This document shows, piece by piece, positions 56,989-64,000 of a stretch of DNA of 64,000 nt (positions within the stretch are counted from its first letter, which is position 1; the number at the start of each line of letters is the position of its first letter). The DNA lies in the NCBI RefSeq assembly GCF_040409805.1, contig NZ_CP099572.1, positions 1,612,001 to 1,676,000 on the forward strand. Reading direction: 5' to 3'. Made by a program: the position numbers and the translations under genes. Source of the stretch: Polynucleobacter sp. MWH-UH23A (GTDB taxonomy: Bacteria; Pseudomonadota; Gammaproteobacteria; Burkholderiales; Burkholderiaceae). The notes beneath the pieces were generated by a model. The model saw only the letters and a list, made by a program, of their open reading frames with translations, had not been told where the DNA came from and ran no database searches.

Positions 56989-57381
56989 CTACGCCCGCTG
57001 ACTCACCAGGACGTTATTCATTCTCTGAAAATCCCTGGCTACCTTCAATAATTCCTCGGAAGGCAGTTGACGAATTAGCTCTCCAGTATCCGGGTTAACT
57101 ACCCGAACTACATGGTAGCCCGTTGTTTCATCTACTGAAAAGTTCAAATTACGACCCATAGACTTCACAAACTCTTGTAAATCGGCGGCCGCTTTTGCCA
57201 CCGCTTCGCGTGTAGGTCTACTGGTCTCATTAATACCTGAAGGCTTAATTTCAGCTGCAGCAACTTTAGATACCACCTCAGCATCAGATCTTGTTTGAAG
57301 TGCTTGGGGCGGCGTGCTGGCAGGCTGCATGACATTGGCGCTAGTAGCAGCGCTATTGTATGCATTAACTGTTGTGCTCAT
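56989..57381 (-). CDS. flaG: FlaG family protein, copy A
   Basis: 130 residues. The C-terminal FlaG domain (about 65-130) reads LQEFVKSMGRNLNFSVDETT and PDTGELIRQLPSEELLKVAR. FlaG affects filament length and surface attachment. The protein is identical in every residue to copy B at 58937. It follows fliC copy A by 72 bp. Confidence 0.93.
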   Translation of the reverse strand: MSTTVNAYNSAATSANVMQPASTPPQALQTRSDAEVVSKVAAAEIKPSGINETSRPTREAVAKAAADLQEFVKSMGRNLNFSVDETTGYHVVRVVNPDTGELIRQLPSEELLKVARDFQRMNNVLVSQRA

Positions 57382-57453
57382 TCCAAATTCTCCCGTGTAC
57401 TAACTGCTGATGCATAGTGTATTACCCATCACACTATGCATCAACTCATCTCA

Positions 57454-58770
57454 TTACTTCAACAAAGACAGAACAATGTTTGGCATCTGATTAGCTTGGG
57501 CTAACATTGCTGTTGCTGCCTGCTGCATGATCTGACCCTTAGTCAATTTCGCAGTTTCTGCTGCAAAATCAGTGTCTGTGATCGCTGAACGTGAGCTCTG
57601 TAAGTTAGTGCTATAAGCTTCTAAGTTCTGGTTAATGTAGCTGATACGGTTTTGCAATGCACCCATATTAGAACGCTGCTCAGAAACAACATCTAGGGCT
57701 GCATCCACAAAGGTTCCCATCGTACTAAAGGCATTTGCCCAAGTCGTTTGTGCAGTCGAAGTCGTATAACTATTAAGCAAGTTAATCTGACCACCCAAAT
57801 CATTCATTGCCTGGAAGCCACCGGAGGTAGTATCGGTACGCATATTAATTGCGTCATAAACCACCATATTTGGAGTGGAGGTATCTGAACCACCTTGGAA
57901 ATAGAGGTCAGGAACAGTACCACCGGTTGTGGTGATCTCATTTCCATTAAATGCTTTTGCAAGGTCGACAGCAGAAGCTGCATATGCGCTACTAGCCGTA
58001 AAGGATATTGCAATACCAATTTGGTCAAAGTTAATAGTTTGAACACCGCCAGCAGTTCCGGCATAAGCTGTTAACCCCAGTGATTGCGAATATGTTGTCG
58101 AAGTTACAACACCAGCATAAGTGCTCGTAATGATCGAGGAAGCTGTTAAAGTACCTGAAGCACCTGTTAGGGTAAATGTACCCAGTGCCATGGTATTTGC
58201 GGAGACAGAGACGCCTGAGGCTGCTGTCGCAATAGCTCCTAATGTCGCAGCCGTTCCACCTGTTAAGGTCACGCCACTGGCCAAACCACCTACTACACCC
58301 GATTTTGCTGTTCCAGAAGAAGTGCCACCGGCAATAGCCGCACTCACTGTAGAAGAAATCAAATTATTTCGGTTGAACTTGGTGCGAGCTGCTGTTGCGT
58401 TAATTTCAGTATTTAGTTCGTTAATCTCATCAACGATTTGAGTACGCTGACTAGCAGACAAAGAACCATCGTAACCCTGGGTTGTCAAGGTTTTGATACG
58501 CAGAAGCATGTCCTGAATAGTACCCATTGAGGTATCTGCAGTCTGGATCAAATTGGTCGCATCATTCAAGTTACGACGGGATTGATTAACACCATTGATC
58601 TGGTTTTGCATGAACTGAGAAATTGCCAGGCCTGCAGCATCATCCTTAGCGCTATTGATACGTAAACCAGATGAAAGGCGCTGTACCGAATTAGCTAAGT
58701 TATTTTGCGCATTAGATAAGTTGTTTTGCGCATACAACGAAGCCAAGTTAGTGTTAATTACTGTAGACAT
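57454..58770 (-). CDS. fliC: Flagellin FliC, copy A
   Basis: 438 residues. Conserved D0/D1 ends: NTNLASLYAQNNLSNAQNNL and TKGQIMQQAATAMLAQANQM. The variable middle (about 143-277) is Ser/Thr/Ala/Gly-rich, likely surface-exposed and glycosylated. It differs from copy B in two short segments only. A sigma-28-like promoter lies upstream. Confidence 0.96.
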   Translation of the reverse strand: MSTVINTNLASLYAQNNLSNAQNNLANSVQRLSSGLRINSAKDDAAGLAISQFMQNQINGVNQSRRNLNDATNLIQTADTSMGTIQDMLLRIKTLTTQGYDGSLSASQRTQIVDEINELNTEINATAARTKFNRNNLISSTVSAAIAGGTSSGTAKSGVVGGLASGVTLTGGTAATLGAIATAASGVSVSANTMALGTFTLTGASGTLTASSIITSTYAGVVTSTTYSQSLGLTAYAGTAGGVQTINFDQIGIAISFTASSAYAASAVDLAKAFNGNEITTTGGTVPDLYFQGGSDTSTPNMVVYDAINMRTDTTSGGFQAMNDLGGQINLLNSYTTSTAQTTWANAFSTMGTFVDAALDVVSEQRSNMGALQNRISYINQNLEAYSTNLQSSRSAITDTDFAAETAKLTKGQIMQQAATAMLAQANQMPNIVLSLLK

Positions 58771-58836
58771 GACATTTTCTCCATTAATTCTGTCAAATTA
58801 GGATCAACTTCTTTATATTGACCCCCTGTGATTGAT

Positions 58837-58864
58837 TTAACGGACAGGATGAAGAAAGTGTTTA
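58837..58864 (-). promoter_or_regulatory. Sigma-28-like promoter of fliC copy A
   Basis: Minus strand TAAACACT at -35 (58857-58864) and TCCGTTAA at -10 (58837-58844), close to TAAA-N15-GCCGATAA of FliA. The same element precedes copy B. No fliA gene is in the window. Confidence 0.7.
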
Positions 58865-58893
58865 GGGACGAGACCAGTCAATATAGAAAAGAA

Positions 58894-58915
58894 AAAGCCG
58901 CCATATGGCGGCTTT
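58894..58915. terminator. Terminator after flaG copy B
   Basis: A perfect 22-base inverted repeat (AAAGCCGCC / GGCGGCTTT around ATAT). On the minus strand it is followed by TTTCTTTTC, so it ends the fliC-flaG copy B transcript 22 bp past the flaG stop. It lies in the short unique stretch between the two duplicated blocks. Confidence 0.85.
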
Positions 58916-58936
58916 GATGCGTGAAACTATAGAAAA

Positions 58937-59329
58937 TTAAGCCCGCTGACTCACCAGGACGTTATTCATTCTCTGAAAATCCCTGGCTACCTTCAATAAT
59001 TCCTCGGAAGGCAGTTGACGAATTAGCTCTCCAGTATCCGGGTTAACTACCCGAACTACATGGTAGCCCGTTGTTTCATCTACTGAAAAGTTCAAATTAC
59101 GACCCATAGACTTCACAAACTCTTGTAAATCGGCGGCCGCTTTTGCCACCGCTTCGCGTGTAGGTCTACTGGTCTCATTAATACCTGAAGGCTTAATTTC
59201 AGCTGCAGCAACTTTAGATACCACCTCAGCATCAGATCTTGTTTGAAGTGCTTGGGGCGGCGTGCTGGCAGGCTGCATGACATTGGCGCTAGTAGCAGCG
59301 CTATTGTATGCATTAACTGTTGTGCTCAT
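58937..59329 (-). CDS. flaG: FlaG family protein, copy B
   Basis: 130 residues, identical in sequence to copy A including the C-terminal FlaG domain. The DNA is also the same over the gene and both flanks, up to the stop codon (TAA here, TAG in copy A). Paired with fliC copy B. Confidence 0.93.
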   Translation of the reverse strand: MSTTVNAYNSAATSANVMQPASTPPQALQTRSDAEVVSKVAAAEIKPSGINETSRPTREAVAKAAADLQEFVKSMGRNLNFSVDETTGYHVVRVVNPDTGELIRQLPSEELLKVARDFQRMNNVLVSQRA

Positions 59330-59401
59330 TCCAAATTCTCCCGTGTACTAACTGCTGATGCATAGTGTATTACCCATCACACTATGCATCAACTCATCTC
59401 A

Positions 59402-60634
59402 TTACTTCAACAAAGACAGAACAATGTTTGGCATCTGATTAGCTTGGGCTAACATTGCTGTTGCTGCCTGCTGCATGATCTGACCCTTAGTCAATTTCGC
59501 AGTTTCTGCTGCAAAATCAGTGTCTGTGATCGCTGAACGTGAGCTCTGTAAGTTAGTGCTATAAGCTTCTAAGTTCTGGTTAATGTAGCTGATACGGTTT
59601 TGCAATGCACCCATATTAGAACGCTGCTCAGAAACAACATCTAGGGCTGCATCCACAAAGGTTCCCATCGTACTAAAGGCATTTGCCCAAGTCGTTTGTG
59701 CAGTCGAAGTCGTATAACTATTAAGCAAGTTAATCTGACCACCCAAATCATTCATTGCCTGGAAGCCACCGGAGGTAGTATCGGTACGCATATTAATTGC
59801 GTCATAAACCACCATATTTGGAGTGGAGGTATCTGAACCACCTTGGAAATAGAGGTCAGGAACAGTACCACCGGTTGTGGTGATGGTTTTATTGTTTAAC
59901 CCAACACTCAAATTAGTTGCAGATGCTCCGGAAGTCAGTGTTACATTGATTGCCAATCCAATTTGATCAAAGTTAATCGTTTGAACACCGCCGGCCGCCG
60001 CCGTATAGCCAGTTAAGCTTAATGTTTGAGAGTATGTTGTCGAAGTTACAACACCAGCATAAGTGCTCGTAATGATCGAGGAAGCTGTTAAAGTACCTGA
60101 AGCACCTGTTAGGGTAAATGTACCCAGTGCCATGGTATTGGCCGAAACAGAGTTCACCGCTCCATAGGTTGATGTATCAATAATATTTGTAGCGTTGGTA
60201 GTTGCACTCACTGTAGAAGAAATCAAATTATTTCGGTTGAACTTGGTGCGAGCTGCTGTTGCGTTAATTTCAGTATTTAGTTCGTTAATCTCATCAACGA
60301 TTTGAGTACGCTGACTAGCAGACAAAGAACCATCGTAACCCTGGGTTGTCAAGGTTTTGATACGCAGAAGCATGTCCTGAATAGTACCCATTGAGGTATC
60401 TGCAGTCTGGATCAAATTGGTCGCATCATTCAAGTTACGACGGGATTGATTAACACCATTGATCTGGTTTTGCATGAACTGAGAAATTGCCAGGCCTGCA
60501 GCATCATCCTTAGCGCTATTGATACGTAAACCAGATGAAAGGCGCTGTACCGAATTAGCTAAGTTATTTTGCGCATTAGATAAGTTGTTTTGCGCATACA
60601 ACGAAGCCAAGTTAGTGTTAATTACTGTAGACAT
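59402..60634 (-). CDS. fliC: Flagellin FliC, copy B
   Basis: 410 residues. The N-terminal 144 residues and C-terminal 150 match copy A exactly; the middle differs in two segments and is 28 residues shorter. Filament protein. The promoter and 5' leader match copy A. Having two near-identical flagellins allows antigenic or length variation by recombination. Confidence 0.96.
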   Translation of the reverse strand: MSTVINTNLASLYAQNNLSNAQNNLANSVQRLSSGLRINSAKDDAAGLAISQFMQNQINGVNQSRRNLNDATNLIQTADTSMGTIQDMLLRIKTLTTQGYDGSLSASQRTQIVDEINELNTEINATAARTKFNRNNLISSTVSATTNATNIIDTSTYGAVNSVSANTMALGTFTLTGASGTLTASSIITSTYAGVVTSTTYSQTLSLTGYTAAAGGVQTINFDQIGLAINVTLTSGASATNLSVGLNNKTITTTGGTVPDLYFQGGSDTSTPNMVVYDAINMRTDTTSGGFQAMNDLGGQINLLNSYTTSTAQTTWANAFSTMGTFVDAALDVVSEQRSNMGALQNRISYINQNLEAYSTNLQSSRSAITDTDFAAETAKLTKGQIMQQAATAMLAQANQMPNIVLSLLK

Positions 60635-60728: not shown

Positions 60729-60732
60729 GGGA

Positions 60733-60901
60733 ATTTGAGGGGGCATCTAAATTTATCAACAAAATCAATTGTTTATGAAATTAAATGGCTTTTTAATCAG
60801 CAATCCAGGGCTTTCAATTACTGACTAAACTATGGCAAATATATCCAACACTAACCATTGCCCACACAAGATCCAGTAATTATCAGAGTATGAGAGACAA
60901 C
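60733..60901. other. AT-rich intergenic stretch
   Basis: 169 bp between the duplicated flagellin block and the methyltransferase remnant. No gene, hairpin or repeat of note was seen. Confidence 0.4.
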
Positions 60902-61527
60902 ATGTACCAATTTACAAACACGTGGTTTCTTGATGGCGCTAAAGATGTTGGGATTGCCTTATCCCCCAGCTAAATCCAGCAAGAATACTAGAAATCGGTT
61001 CTTTCGAGGGCGCTTGTATCTGCTATTTAATTGAAAAATTGGGCGCGAAACATAGTCTAGAAATTCACTCTATAGACACCTGGTAAGGCAGCATAGAGCA
61101 TAAAGACCAAGGATTTGAGGCTACAGAAATGTCTGGTGTTGAGAATCGTTTTAAACACAATGTCTCCATCGCCAATAAAACTCTGAAAATCTAGTAAATA
61201 TGCGTAAACATAAAGGGCTAAGCCATGTCAAATTAGCTGAACTTATCAACGACGGCTACGAAAATTTCTTTGACTTAATTTACGTAGATGGATCTCACCA
61301 AGCCCCCCGATGTAATTTTAGATGCCGTATCAAGTTTCAAGCTTTTGCGAACGGGTAAGGTTATGGTTTTTGATGACTACCTGTGGAATGAGTCTCTACC
61401 CTATGGAGTGCATCCAATACGCTCTCCAAAAATTGCAATAGATGCATTTACCAACATTTATAGCAAAAAGATCTCAATTCTGAGGCTGCCCCTGCATCAA
61501 CTTTATGTTCAAAAAAACTCAGATTAG
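60902..61527 (+). pseudogene. Broken class I SAM-dependent methyltransferase
   Basis: Starting at ATG 60902, the frames piece together a methyltransferase: WFLDGAKDVGIALSPS then stop; PARILEIGSFEGACICYLIE (SAM motif I) then stop after IHSIDTW; then FKHNVSIANKTLKI with stops; DLIYVDGSHQAP; and, after a frameshift in a C6 run near 61303-61308, DVILDAVSSFKLLRTGKVMVFDDYLWNES. At least three in-frame stops plus the shift show it is dead. The parent may have modified the flagellar glycan; this is inference from position. Confidence 0.8.
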
Positions 61528-61555
61528 TTGATCCTATTAGAAATACTAACTAGTC

Positions 61556-63418
61556 TCAATAGTTGGCGTAATTTGTGACTTTGTGCTCCAGACTTTTATG
61601 CTCTTCGACATTAAGCATAATTACCTTACGCTTTTTTGCAGCAACCGACTTCAACGCAAGATCTTCGTTTGATTTCGTATAGGTATCAATATTTTCGTAA
61701 TCATAATGCCCTTGTAATTTTGCAGCCGCTCCGCATCCAGGACAAAATCTCTTAATCTGATCTCCAAATTGATCTATGGGGGTTTTCCACCAATCTAAAA
61801 CAACCTCATGTCCATGATCTTCATTTCGAGCCAGATCAAATGAGGCTGCAACCTCACAAAAATAGGCCCTCAATTTTCCGTTGTTTTGCACAATTGCAGC
61901 AGACCATTCGCGATTAATGTCACAAGCCGCAATCTTTTCCCACATTTCATGCTCTTCATATATATCTTTAATAGCCGTCAATAATGGGGCATGGTCTGAA
62001 CTTTTGTCATAGTAACCAGCATTACGTCCACCCATCGCCAGAACAGTCTGATGGAGATCTTTTAAGGGCTCAATTGCTCGAGGATTATTATGCGGATTCA
62101 GATTGAAGCTACCAAATGTCTCTTCAACTAATTTTCGATGCTTAAAATAATTGTTTGTCCAAAGACCACGTTGAATTTGGTTTGGGATTTCTTCAATAAA
62201 TATTTTGCATAACTCTTCAAACTTAGTATGCATGCATGGATTTCCACCAATCATGGCAATTACACCATTGTAATTTTTTAAACTTCTTAGAGCCTCTCTA
62301 AAGTTCTCGGGACTCATTTCCCAGTACTTGTCTTGATTTTCCAGTAATCTGGTGCAATTTGAGCAGGCTAGATCACACTTATTCGTAACATCTACACAAA
62401 TAATGTGCATATGCTCTGGGCTACGCATTCTTTTGATCGCTAAGTCTGCATAGGAGATTTTTCCCTCTTGAGCTAAGTTTTTCTCCAGTATCTCAGCAAC
62501 TTCATGAAGGGAGAATTCCTTAGTAAAAAAGTGCCTATCTTCTTTTATTTTTTTAAGTTTTTGATAAATTTGCTCAAATGGTATGTTATTGACAATCTCG
62601 GGGATACGCTCCAAATCTCTCTCAGCCACAACTAAGCAGTAATCATCCCACTTTATTTTTTTAGAAAAAGGCAGGACATAATCGTCGGATAAAAGAATTG
62701 GTATGGATCCATTCAAAAGCGCCTCCAAAAATCTAAAGCTCCAGCGACCTATTCCTGCAGGACATAAAGTAAAAAAACTTCTTGCCATGATTGAATGGTA
62801 TGTAAACTGCGGAAACTCTTCGGGGGCGCCAATAACTATATTTGCATCACTGAATTTATTTTTAAAGTCGATTAGCTTTCCACCTCTAATATGGGATGGA
62901 GGCAAAAATAGCTGGGTTAATTTACCGAGAAATGAAATAAGAATATCTCTAGCCTCATTTGGATAGGGAATCTCTTGATGTTGATAAGGCAAGAAAGCAA
63001 TATCGCGCGGCCAGAGATTAATCGACTCTAAGACTATCAGGGAAAATCTTTCATCTAACCATTTGTATGGTTGATCGTACGCCCTTCCAGGAACACCTTC
63101 GGTCATATCATATTTTGACCGAACTCTTTGACCTACATCCCCAGTAGAAAGAATGATGTGATTGCCCCTATCTAAATATTTACAATTCTTAAGAATTAAC
63201 TCTTCGGGATCAATATTTGCAAATTGCCATCCAGTTAGATAAAGAGGTACATAGAAATAATGAGCCTCATCCGGATCCAAAGTTCTATATTTGGCAAAAA
63301 AATCTGTGAAGTCAATCCAATACTGCAAATGATGCTCTTGCCTATGAATTGCGGCTGTATCTAGATTAAATTGTTGCAAGCTCTCATCTAAAAACTCATC
63401 GTATATAAAAATTTTCAT
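61556..63418 (-). CDS. Fusion of an exostosin-like (GT47) glycosyltransferase and a radical-SAM domain
   Basis: 620 residues. The N-terminal part (about 1-290) is exostosin-like: SFFTLCPAGIGRWSFRFLEA (about 214-233) and LLSDDYVLPFSKKIKWDDYC. The C-terminal part (about 335-570) is a radical-SAM domain with the cluster motif C348-x3-C352-x2-C355 (CDLACSNC), a GGNPCMH segment, and later Cys at 521, 559 and 562 (FCPGCG) that may hold another cluster. Exostosins transfer sugars; radical-SAM enzymes modify unreactive carbons. The fusion could build or alter a surface sugar. It lies next to flagellins and 10 bp after the gene at 63429, so they may form an operon. Confidence 0.8.
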   Translation of the reverse strand: MKIFIYDEFLDESLQQFNLDTAAIHRQEHHLQYWIDFTDFFAKYRTLDPDEAHYFYVPLYLTGWQFANIDPEELILKNCKYLDRGNHIILSTGDVGQRVRSKYDMTEGVPGRAYDQPYKWLDERFSLIVLESINLWPRDIAFLPYQHQEIPYPNEARDILISFLGKLTQLFLPPSHIRGGKLIDFKNKFSDANIVIGAPEEFPQFTYHSIMARSFFTLCPAGIGRWSFRFLEALLNGSIPILLSDDYVLPFSKKIKWDDYCLVVAERDLERIPEIVNNIPFEQIYQKLKKIKEDRHFFTKEFSLHEVAEILEKNLAQEGKISYADLAIKRMRSPEHMHIICVDVTNKCDLACSNCTRLLENQDKYWEMSPENFREALRSLKNYNGVIAMIGGNPCMHTKFEELCKIFIEEIPNQIQRGLWTNNYFKHRKLVEETFGSFNLNPHNNPRAIEPLKDLHQTVLAMGGRNAGYYDKSSDHAPLLTAIKDIYEEHEMWEKIAACDINREWSAAIVQNNGKLRAYFCEVAASFDLARNEDHGHEVVLDWWKTPIDQFGDQIKRFCPGCGAAAKLQGHYDYENIDTYTKSNEDLALKSVAAKKRKVIMLNVEEHKSLEHKVTNYANY

Positions 63419-63428
63419 TGGAGATACC

Positions 63429-64000
63429 CTATTTTTTTAGATCTTCCGCAATTCTGTTAACAACAGATTCCCAATCATGGGGCTTGGGCTGCCTATAAAT
63501 CTTGAATGTTGGATACCATGGACTATCCTCTCGGTCTAATAACCAGCGCCAACAGGTGTCAAAACGATTCATAAGCCACACTGGCTTACCAAGTGCGCCA
63601 GCCAAGTGTGCCGTTGATGTATCAACAGATATAACAAGATCTAAATTTTCTATAAGCGCTGCGGTATCAGTAAAGTCATTGAGTGAATCAGCATGATTAA
63701 TAATTCTTGGACCATCCCAATTTTGCAAATGAAGCACAACAAGCTCTGACTCCGGAAGTTCACCTTTTTGAAGGCTATGGAACTCAATTCCTTCGGTTTT
63801 AAAATTTTTTAACTTTGATAGTTCAATATTTCTTCTTCGATTTAGCGGCCATAACTCTGGCTGATCAGGCCTAAAGCCCCCCGACCAAACTAAGCCCACC
63901 CTTTTAGCATTTACAGGTCCTAATTTTTGCTTCCAAGCTTGTACCTTTAAGGGGTCTGCTTTCAGGTATGGAATTTCACTGGGTATATTCTCGATTCCGT
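63429..64000 (-). CDS. TPR/GT9-like glycosyltransferase (C-terminal part, cut by window edge)
   Basis: 189 residues visible; the frame stays open to base 64000, so the GTG at 63899 is internal. The visible part runs IPYLKADPLKVQAWKQKLG, then VGLVWSGG, SLQKGE, and LDLVISVDTSTAHLAGALGK, then DREDSPWYPTFKIYRQ, all typical of the heptosyltransferase-like domain in TPR-glycosyltransferases found near flagellin genes. The N-terminal TPRs would be outside the window. A flagellin O-glycosylation role is inferred from context. Confidence 0.75.
   Translation of the reverse strand, partial: GIENIPSEIPYLKADPLKVQAWKQKLGPVNAKRVGLVWSGGFRPDQPELWPLNRRRNIELSKLKNFKTEGIEFHSLQKGELPESELVVLHLQNWDGPRIINHADSLNDFTDTAALIENLDLVISVDTSTAHLAGALGKPVWLMNRFDTCWRWLLDREDSPWYPTFKIYRQPKPHDWESVVNRIAEDLKK

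Follow-up and report, generated by a model that had tools for sequence, protein, structure and literature searches.

A GT47–radical-SAM fusion gene within a flagellar gene cluster of Polynucleobacter, related to phage cassette genes and possibly involved in glycan modification

Radical S-adenosylmethionine (SAM) dehydrogenases of the Twitch type have been described in antibiotic pathways, where their substrates are sugar-like rings, SpeY taking part in spectinomycin biosynthesis and BtrN in that of butirosin, and GT47 domains can be followed by another catalytic domain, which in EXT1 is a GT64. As regards flagella, the portion consulted of the study on the Caulobacter flagellin O-glycosyltransferase FlmG describes a tetratricopeptide repeat (TPR) part that binds flagellin and a C-terminal GT-B part that is needed for modification (PMC7591256). 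Here, we followed up an earlier note on a stretch of 64,000 nucleotides of Polynucleobacter sp. MWH-UH23A (contig NZ_CP099572.1, positions 1,612,001 to 1,676,000; hereafter the window), which had singled out a gene joining a GT47-type domain to a radical-SAM domain and had proposed that its product builds or remodels a sugar on the flagellar filament. We tentatively read this gene, present as one copy in a genome made of one contig of 2.07 Mb, as encoding a bifunctional glycan enzyme that would give rise to an oxidized or extended O-glycan on flagellin and that belongs to a gene pool common with phages, a reading to which we grant somewhat less than even chances.

Both halves of the predicted protein exceed the Pfam cut-offs, Exostosin_GT47 (PF03016) covering residues 1–279 (E 2.6e-24; 86.5 bits vs. 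a cut-off of 33.4) and Radical_SAM (PF04055) residues 344–462 (E 2.3e-7; 31.6 bits vs. 29.5), whereas none of the NCBIfam radical-SAM families reached its curated cut-off (best score 30.4 bits vs. 450) and the best PHROG match (E 1.8e-5) was limited to residues 309–426. The family is large, with 822 protein clusters reaching E 1e-10 or better, and the homologue set obtained here (8,000 candidates scored, 173 homologues found, and 120 listed, 53–71% identical to the first sequence of the query) includes 62 listed members with PF03016, which means that the GT47–radical-SAM layout recurs and that the combination, although unusual, as had been claimed, is not unique. In a full-length alignment of the window protein with 29 chosen relatives, the mean column identity over the 30 rows is 53%, and M1 and K2 are kept in at least 90% of the rows, a few of which have N-terminal extensions. 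Since 62 of the 120 listed homologues carry PF03016 and these 29 relatives align full length, the fusion is no artefact of assembly or frame. Two longer relatives, P0035 (939 aa) and P0039 (949 aa), have about 300 additional residues ahead of the GT47–radical-SAM pair. Within the GT47 half, residues 201–285 align with residues 292–376 of EXT1, and G224, W226, R229, and E232 are invariant in 30/30 rows; from the EXT1 alignment, we infer that these four residues are part of the sugar-nucleotide site. The PF03016 domain, a predicted GT-B fold, and this conserved nucleotide-sugar stretch together assign this half to GT47.

In the radical-SAM half, C348, C352, and C355, which form the motif C348-X3-C352-X2-C355, are Cys in 260/260 aligned relatives; together with the PF04055 match, this places the protein in the radical-SAM superfamily, and the motif is well supported by sequence as a genuine cluster motif. 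That the additional cysteines to which the earlier note had drawn attention matter is likewise well supported by sequence, C499 being Cys in 264/264 aligned relatives, C521 in 262/263, and both C559 and C562 in 263/263. C341 (252) and C404 (249) are Cys in most of about 260, and C395 is variable (184); the totals differ between positions because of partial hits among the relatives. The domain search and structure prediction that had been proposed for both halves returned, beside the GT47 GT-B fold, a Twitch-type radical-SAM fold: a model of this half computed with 40 sequences (predicted local distance difference test 88.3; predicted template modeling score 0.89) places C499 ahead of a beta-hairpin, G514 in the hairpin turn, C521 directly past the hairpin, and C559-X2-C562 at the end of the next helix. 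This arrangement, with cysteine positions read from the predicted strands and helices, is that of a Twitch domain as given for BtrN in the consulted part of PMC6231123 (a Cys before a beta-hairpin with a Gly, a Cys after it, and CX2C past the following helix), albeit with a different Gly-to-Cys gap (CX14GX6C here vs. the described CX9-15GX4C). When the predicted half was compared with known folds, SpeY scored 4.3 Z units over BtrN, and both ranked above the other radical-SAM chains listed, the next having a Z of 11.0.

From this modeled fold, the radical-SAM half probably oxidizes sugars by means of a radical, and the broader claim that the protein works on sugars is well backed by the predicted folds and the glycosyltransferase neighbors. 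A sugar reaction other than dehydrogenation, that is, epimerization, deoxygenation, or dehydration, is quite unlikely. In its favor, the sequence itself gives no reaction, and the antibiotic- or sugar-pathway radical-SAM enzymes DesII (Z 8.9) and BlsE (Z 10.5) are present in the same fold list, at lower Z. Against it, an auxiliary cluster with four Cys is what one would expect of a two-electron oxidation, a point made for BtrN versus MoaA in the excerpt used of PMC9012708. We consider it very unlikely that the radical-SAM half acts on a protein, namely flagellin or the head protein, for instance by epimerizing or cross-linking residues, with the GT47 half decorating the product. Indeed, the fold list is headed by SpeY and BtrN, the latter of which acts on a small cyclitol, and the Pfam scan of the fusion protein found no third domain, such as one for peptide recognition. 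Moreover, the listed radical-SAM halves are 55–71% identical to that of the window protein (95% for P0001) despite differing fusion partners, other listed relatives being fused to GT2 (PF00535) or carrying PF04577, PF02434, PF05050, or PF13578, the first three of which we take to be GT61, Fringe, and FkbM, respectively.

The location of the gene beside flagellin, as the earlier note had it, is borne out by the two fliC genes of the window (table 1) and by a third flagellin gene just outside it. Upstream of the fusion gene, on the same strand and with an operon-like end-to-start gap of 10 bp, lies the gene of a protein with TPR repeats and a PF01075 (GT9) domain that just reaches the cut-off (E 8e-5; 22.5 bits vs. 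22). Such a combination of TPR and GT-B-type parts encoded beside flagellin, as in FlmG, is also found beside fliC in the relative that has the closest TPR–GT9 protein (85% identity) and shares long aligned DNA blocks that are 79–94% identical (genome G096). Because the predicted fold is of a sugar type, because partners and neighbors are mostly glycosyltransferases, and because a TPR–GT9 protein of FlmG layout is encoded in the flagellar cluster, oxidation or extension of a flagellin glycan is the most likely role.

Table 1. Features of the window discussed in the text (positions within the window; strand in parentheses).
Feature	Position	Strand	Details
GT47–radical-SAM fusion gene	61556..63418	(-)	ATG start; 620 aa; no internal stops
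GT47 (exostosin, GT-B) half	62459..63418	(-)	residues 1–320
Radical-SAM half with Twitch-like auxiliary-cluster domain	61556..62443	(-)	residues 326–620
CX3CX2C radical-SAM cluster motif (C348, C352, C355)	62354..62377	(-)	
Auxiliary-cluster cysteines C499, C521, C559, C562	61733..61924	(-)	CX14GX6C then CX2C, around beta-hairpin and helix
TPR + GT9 protein, C-terminal part	63429..64000	(-)	634 aa whole; remainder past the window edge (L002:930-2834)
Segment missing from syntenic relative G096	60732..63449	(.)	blastn breaks at 60731 and 63450; G+C 0.379
Decayed methyltransferase remnant	60950..61480 (approximate)	(+)	stops in all three frames; between fusion gene and fliC
Flagellin (fliC), 410 aa	59402..60634	(-)	PF00669/PF00700
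FlaG copy 2	58937..59329	(-)	listed sequence identical to copy 1; Pfam run on copy 1
Flagellin (fliC), 438 aa	57454..58770	(-)	Pfam
FlaG copy 1	56989..57381	(-)	PF03646

On this reading of the fusion as a flagellin glycan enzyme, the GT47 half, whose family, fold, and site are described above, would transfer a sugar from a nucleotide sugar, and the CX3CX2C cluster of the radical-SAM half would generate a 5'-deoxyadenosyl radical. This radical would abstract a hydrogen from a ring C–H, either of the transferred sugar or of the glycan being extended; with the second electron passing to the auxiliary cluster, a keto sugar would be left, in line with the proposal for BtrN. The fusion would work with the upstream TPR–GT9 protein, whose TPR part would hold flagellin as in FlmG, and the product would be an oxidized or extended O-glycan on flagellin; hence, at the end of this scheme, we infer a keto sugar on flagellin.

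With regard to the surroundings of the cluster, the third flagellin (L002:3078-5474) has 798 aa, including an extended middle domain, is divergent from the TPR–GT9 gene, and corresponds to one of 852 aa in G096; past it, FlhA, FlhF, FleN, and FliA were recognized by reading translations, outside any domain scan. Positions 56989–60634 hold two tandem fliC–flaG pairs, with one FlaG sequence common to both and flagellins that diverge mostly in mid-protein. G096 likewise has two fliC–flaG pairs, and this pairing in both genomes suggests gene conversion or copy-number selection.

The gene order of G096 is the same, but fliC there comes directly after the TPR–GT9 gene, with about 227 bp where the alignment breaks, and that genome therefore lacks a 2.7-kb segment that comprises the fusion gene and the methyltransferase remnant. 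The remnant found its best blastx match, in a database restricted to the proteins fetched in this analysis, among the methyltransferases of the phage cassettes described below (47.7% over 44 aa). The fusion gene would either have been inserted into a pre-existing flagellin glycosylation site or have been lost by sister lineages. That it might be cargo of recent arrival that serves no function at present is extremely unlikely: the G+C content is low (0.378 in the fusion gene and 0.379 in the segment vs. 0.406 in the TPR–GT9 gene and 0.437 in the window) and the segment is lineage-specific and includes a decayed gene, but the 620-aa frame is intact, every cluster cysteine is present, and a relative that is 95% identical and also 620 aa long, P0001, which stands for a cluster of 6 sequences, occurs elsewhere. 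In a set of 151 genomes of the genus (its own included), a full-length match to the fusion is found in its own genome only, six others having a short GT47 or radical-SAM piece, and TPR–GT9-like proteins are found at E 1e-60 or better in 65/151. In one relative (G107, L103:3507-11473), two TPR–GT9 matches are clustered with two features recognized by reading translations, namely a third protein with TPR and an open reading frame that resembles a methyltransferase, which suggests a fast turnover of such loci within the genus.

Beyond the genus, the radical-SAM family is detected at E 1e-30 in 1/369 genomes of the class (its own) and in 2/398 of a phylum sample (its own and G663), and a pattern scan of 84,980 species genomes, which may omit the window's own or very near records, yielded 13 loci, including a weak piece (L022) and one locus on a phage-like contig (L020). 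The latter, binned as Balneolaceae, shows the terminase–portal gene order of phages and is therefore probably a phage contig within a metagenome-assembled genome. In IMG/VR, 77 loci were obtained from 134 matches with slightly shorter patterns, so that the two locus counts are not strictly comparable, and no match to the radical-SAM half was found at E 1e-5 in cultured-phage and plasmid collections. The fetched DNA of 62 of the 77 viral loci also codes for a member of a terminase, portal, or head-protein cluster, as identified from one representative each; three further loci (L030, L037, and L038) have a head protein that is of the second type or that comes into view once more of the contig is included.

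When the GT47 part was used for another scan, 14 loci were obtained; the 11 that carry the fusion were mapped, the other three being distant GT47 hits (22–34% identity). On each of the 11 phage contigs, a gene for the major head protein is found upstream of the fusion, with one to five genes in between (by representatives, nine are of type phrog_1005 and two of type phrog_283), a GT2 gene precedes the fusion in 11/11, and a methyltransferase gene intervenes between the two in 8/11. The fusion is followed in 10/11 by a gene for a protein of 219–220 aa without family match, the eleventh contig ending within the fusion. Given the four-base overlaps between neighboring genes on most of these contigs, this GT2-(methyltransferase)-GT47-rSAM-220-aa cassette looks co-translated. 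As 8 of the 11 contigs are left after dereplication at 90%, their independence is moderate. More broadly, the fetched pieces of the 77 loci include a sugar epimerase in 22, a short GT2 in 53, a large terminase in 54, and a portal in 37. The radical-SAM gene has GT2 directly beside it in 53/73 viral loci versus about 20 in shuffles (maximum 31), in 25/36 versus about 8 (maximum 16) once loci with anchor proteins at least 90% identical are removed, and the count rises to 61/73 versus 22 in shuffles with the 220-aa protein included. Among loci L023–L099, those with a standalone radical-SAM gene show a recurrent cassette, in which a nucleotide-sugar epimerase, a short GT2, and the radical-SAM gene stand before the large terminase gene, the commonest orders being rSAM-GT2-terminase and epimerase-GT2-rSAM-terminase. 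The window's genome itself encodes a sugar epimerase/dehydratase (G000:C1:259704-260630) that is 61% identical to the one of the phage cassettes and is a possible candidate for supplying the donor sugar.

Since the head protein in phages and flagellin here are both abundant self-assembling surface proteins, the parallel between them is suggestive; it is the boldest part of our interpretation and is drawn from gene position. Carried further, it would amount to a radical-SAM-dependent glycosylation of shells, in which phages coat their major head protein with keto sugars by means of GT2, the GT47–radical-SAM protein, and their partners, possibly with hemiketal or amine cross-links between subunits, and in which the bacterium adopted the fusion for decorating its flagellar filament or making it stiffer, a scenario that we regard as rather unlikely.

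The bacterial relatives bring in another explanation, according to which the sugar is built or oxidized on lipopolysaccharide, capsule, or another surface glycan, the flagellar place being incidental and the phage genes altering the host surface. Indeed, these relatives occur near glycosyltransferase or sugar-nucleotide genes: a GT25 gene (lipopolysaccharide biosynthesis, in the Pfam description) stands ahead of the radical-SAM gene at L012 and L016, and L019, which has the one other GT47 fusion encountered here in bacteria, is followed by an epimerase and a GT9, with a GT2 match below cut-off. In addition, genes near L021 resemble a nucleotidyltransferase and a dehydratase by their first residues, outside any domain scan, GT2 adjoins at L011, and at L014, GT2 is fused to the radical-SAM protein. 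The consulted part of a study on pelagimyophages points the same way, since it reads phage glycosyltransferases as modifying the O-chain and reports cassettes with radical-SAM genes in a hypervariable host-recognition region (PMC7029224). Nevertheless, we hold a surface glycan to be somewhat unlikely as the target, given the 10-bp spacing to the TPR–GT9 gene within a flagellar cluster and the constant proximity of the fusion to the major head protein gene on the mapped phage contigs, where tail-fibre genes may be close as well.

Several observations nonetheless weigh against a role in flagellin glycosylation. A tblastn search (E 1e-4) for the window's flagellins at 97 other loci, L019 among them, with flanks of up to 10 kb, gave no match, so the flagellin neighborhood is seen in one genome only; with sugar-related neighbors at the bacterial relatives, the sugar link is therefore general and the flagellin link single. 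The filament sugar of the earlier note is plausible from the 10-bp spacing and the flagellar setting, and is weakened by these loci and by the many relatives on phage contigs; the fusion could act on another cell glycan. Flagella have no need of the fusion, because its full form is not found in the 150 other genomes of the genus, some of them incomplete, of which 64 have a TPR–GT9-like match. A sigma-28-like site upstream of the TPR–GT9 gene scores 9/12, a score reached by 726/2000 shuffles, and co-expression with flagellin is consequently not supported by a promoter. As for the chemistry, the radical-SAM profile matched neither SpeY nor BtrN in a search of PDB sequences up to E 5. The dehydrogenase reading therefore depends on the predicted fold, for which the match is strong, and the function of Twitch/SPASM enzymes is hard to predict, according to the consulted part of PMC6231123. 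Position by itself is no proof that the head protein is a target, because the standalone cassettes adjoin terminase instead of the head protein gene and because cargo genes often lie between structural genes of phages. Finally, in a quick tree from which L093 (truncated) and P0060 (partial) were excluded, the window protein groups with P0001, and the sister of this pair is a 43-sequence clade with all 10 viral fusions used, L019 being distant; the Shimodaira–Hasegawa-like approximate likelihood ratio test gives 92 for that clade and 84 for clade and pair together. These sequences support a common gene pool with phages; as the window protein is not nested inside the phage-bearing clade, direct capture from a phage is not shown, and a direction of transfer is not supported.

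If our reading is true, radical chemistry would be extended to protein or surface glycans by a large uncharacterized family with several glycosyltransferase fusions, phage head glycosylation would gain a testable enzyme set, and the bacterial copy would offer a convenient handle, flagellin being abundant and its mass easily measured. From the perspective of known systems, the predicted radical-SAM half is like SpeY (PDB 7wzx, 7wzv, and 7x0b) in fold, with 11–16% identity in structural alignments, but SpeY chains are about 300 aa long, lack a glycosyltransferase part, and have no profile match to the window family. The other Twitch dehydrogenase, BtrN (PDB 4m7t), similarly belongs to an antibiotic pathway and has a chain of 246 aa without a fused glycosyltransferase and without sequence match, whereas EXT1 and EXT2 have the GT47 domain in common with the window protein, whose second half is radical SAM. 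FlmG and the upstream TPR–GT9 protein are alike in layout, with TPR followed by a glycosyltransferase domain, and in their place beside flagellin genes, but the consulted part of the FlmG study mentions no radical-SAM partner, and the glycosyltransferase part is here a GT9 at cut-off only (PMC7591256). Likewise, by description, the hypervariable cassettes of pelagimyophages resemble the phage loci found here in having radical-SAM genes amid glycosyltransferases, with neither a GT47 fusion nor a position near the head protein mentioned in the part consulted (PMC7029224). In the literature searched, we found no description of the combination of these elements, of a phage cassette of this kind near the head protein gene, or of a family of 822 clusters. 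Twitch-type radical-SAM dehydrogenases, GT47 enzymes, and systems like FlmG are each already known; the occurrence of one and the same fusion in a flagellar cluster and near the major head protein gene of uncultured phages suggests a little-known way to decorate protein shells and filaments with unusual sugars.
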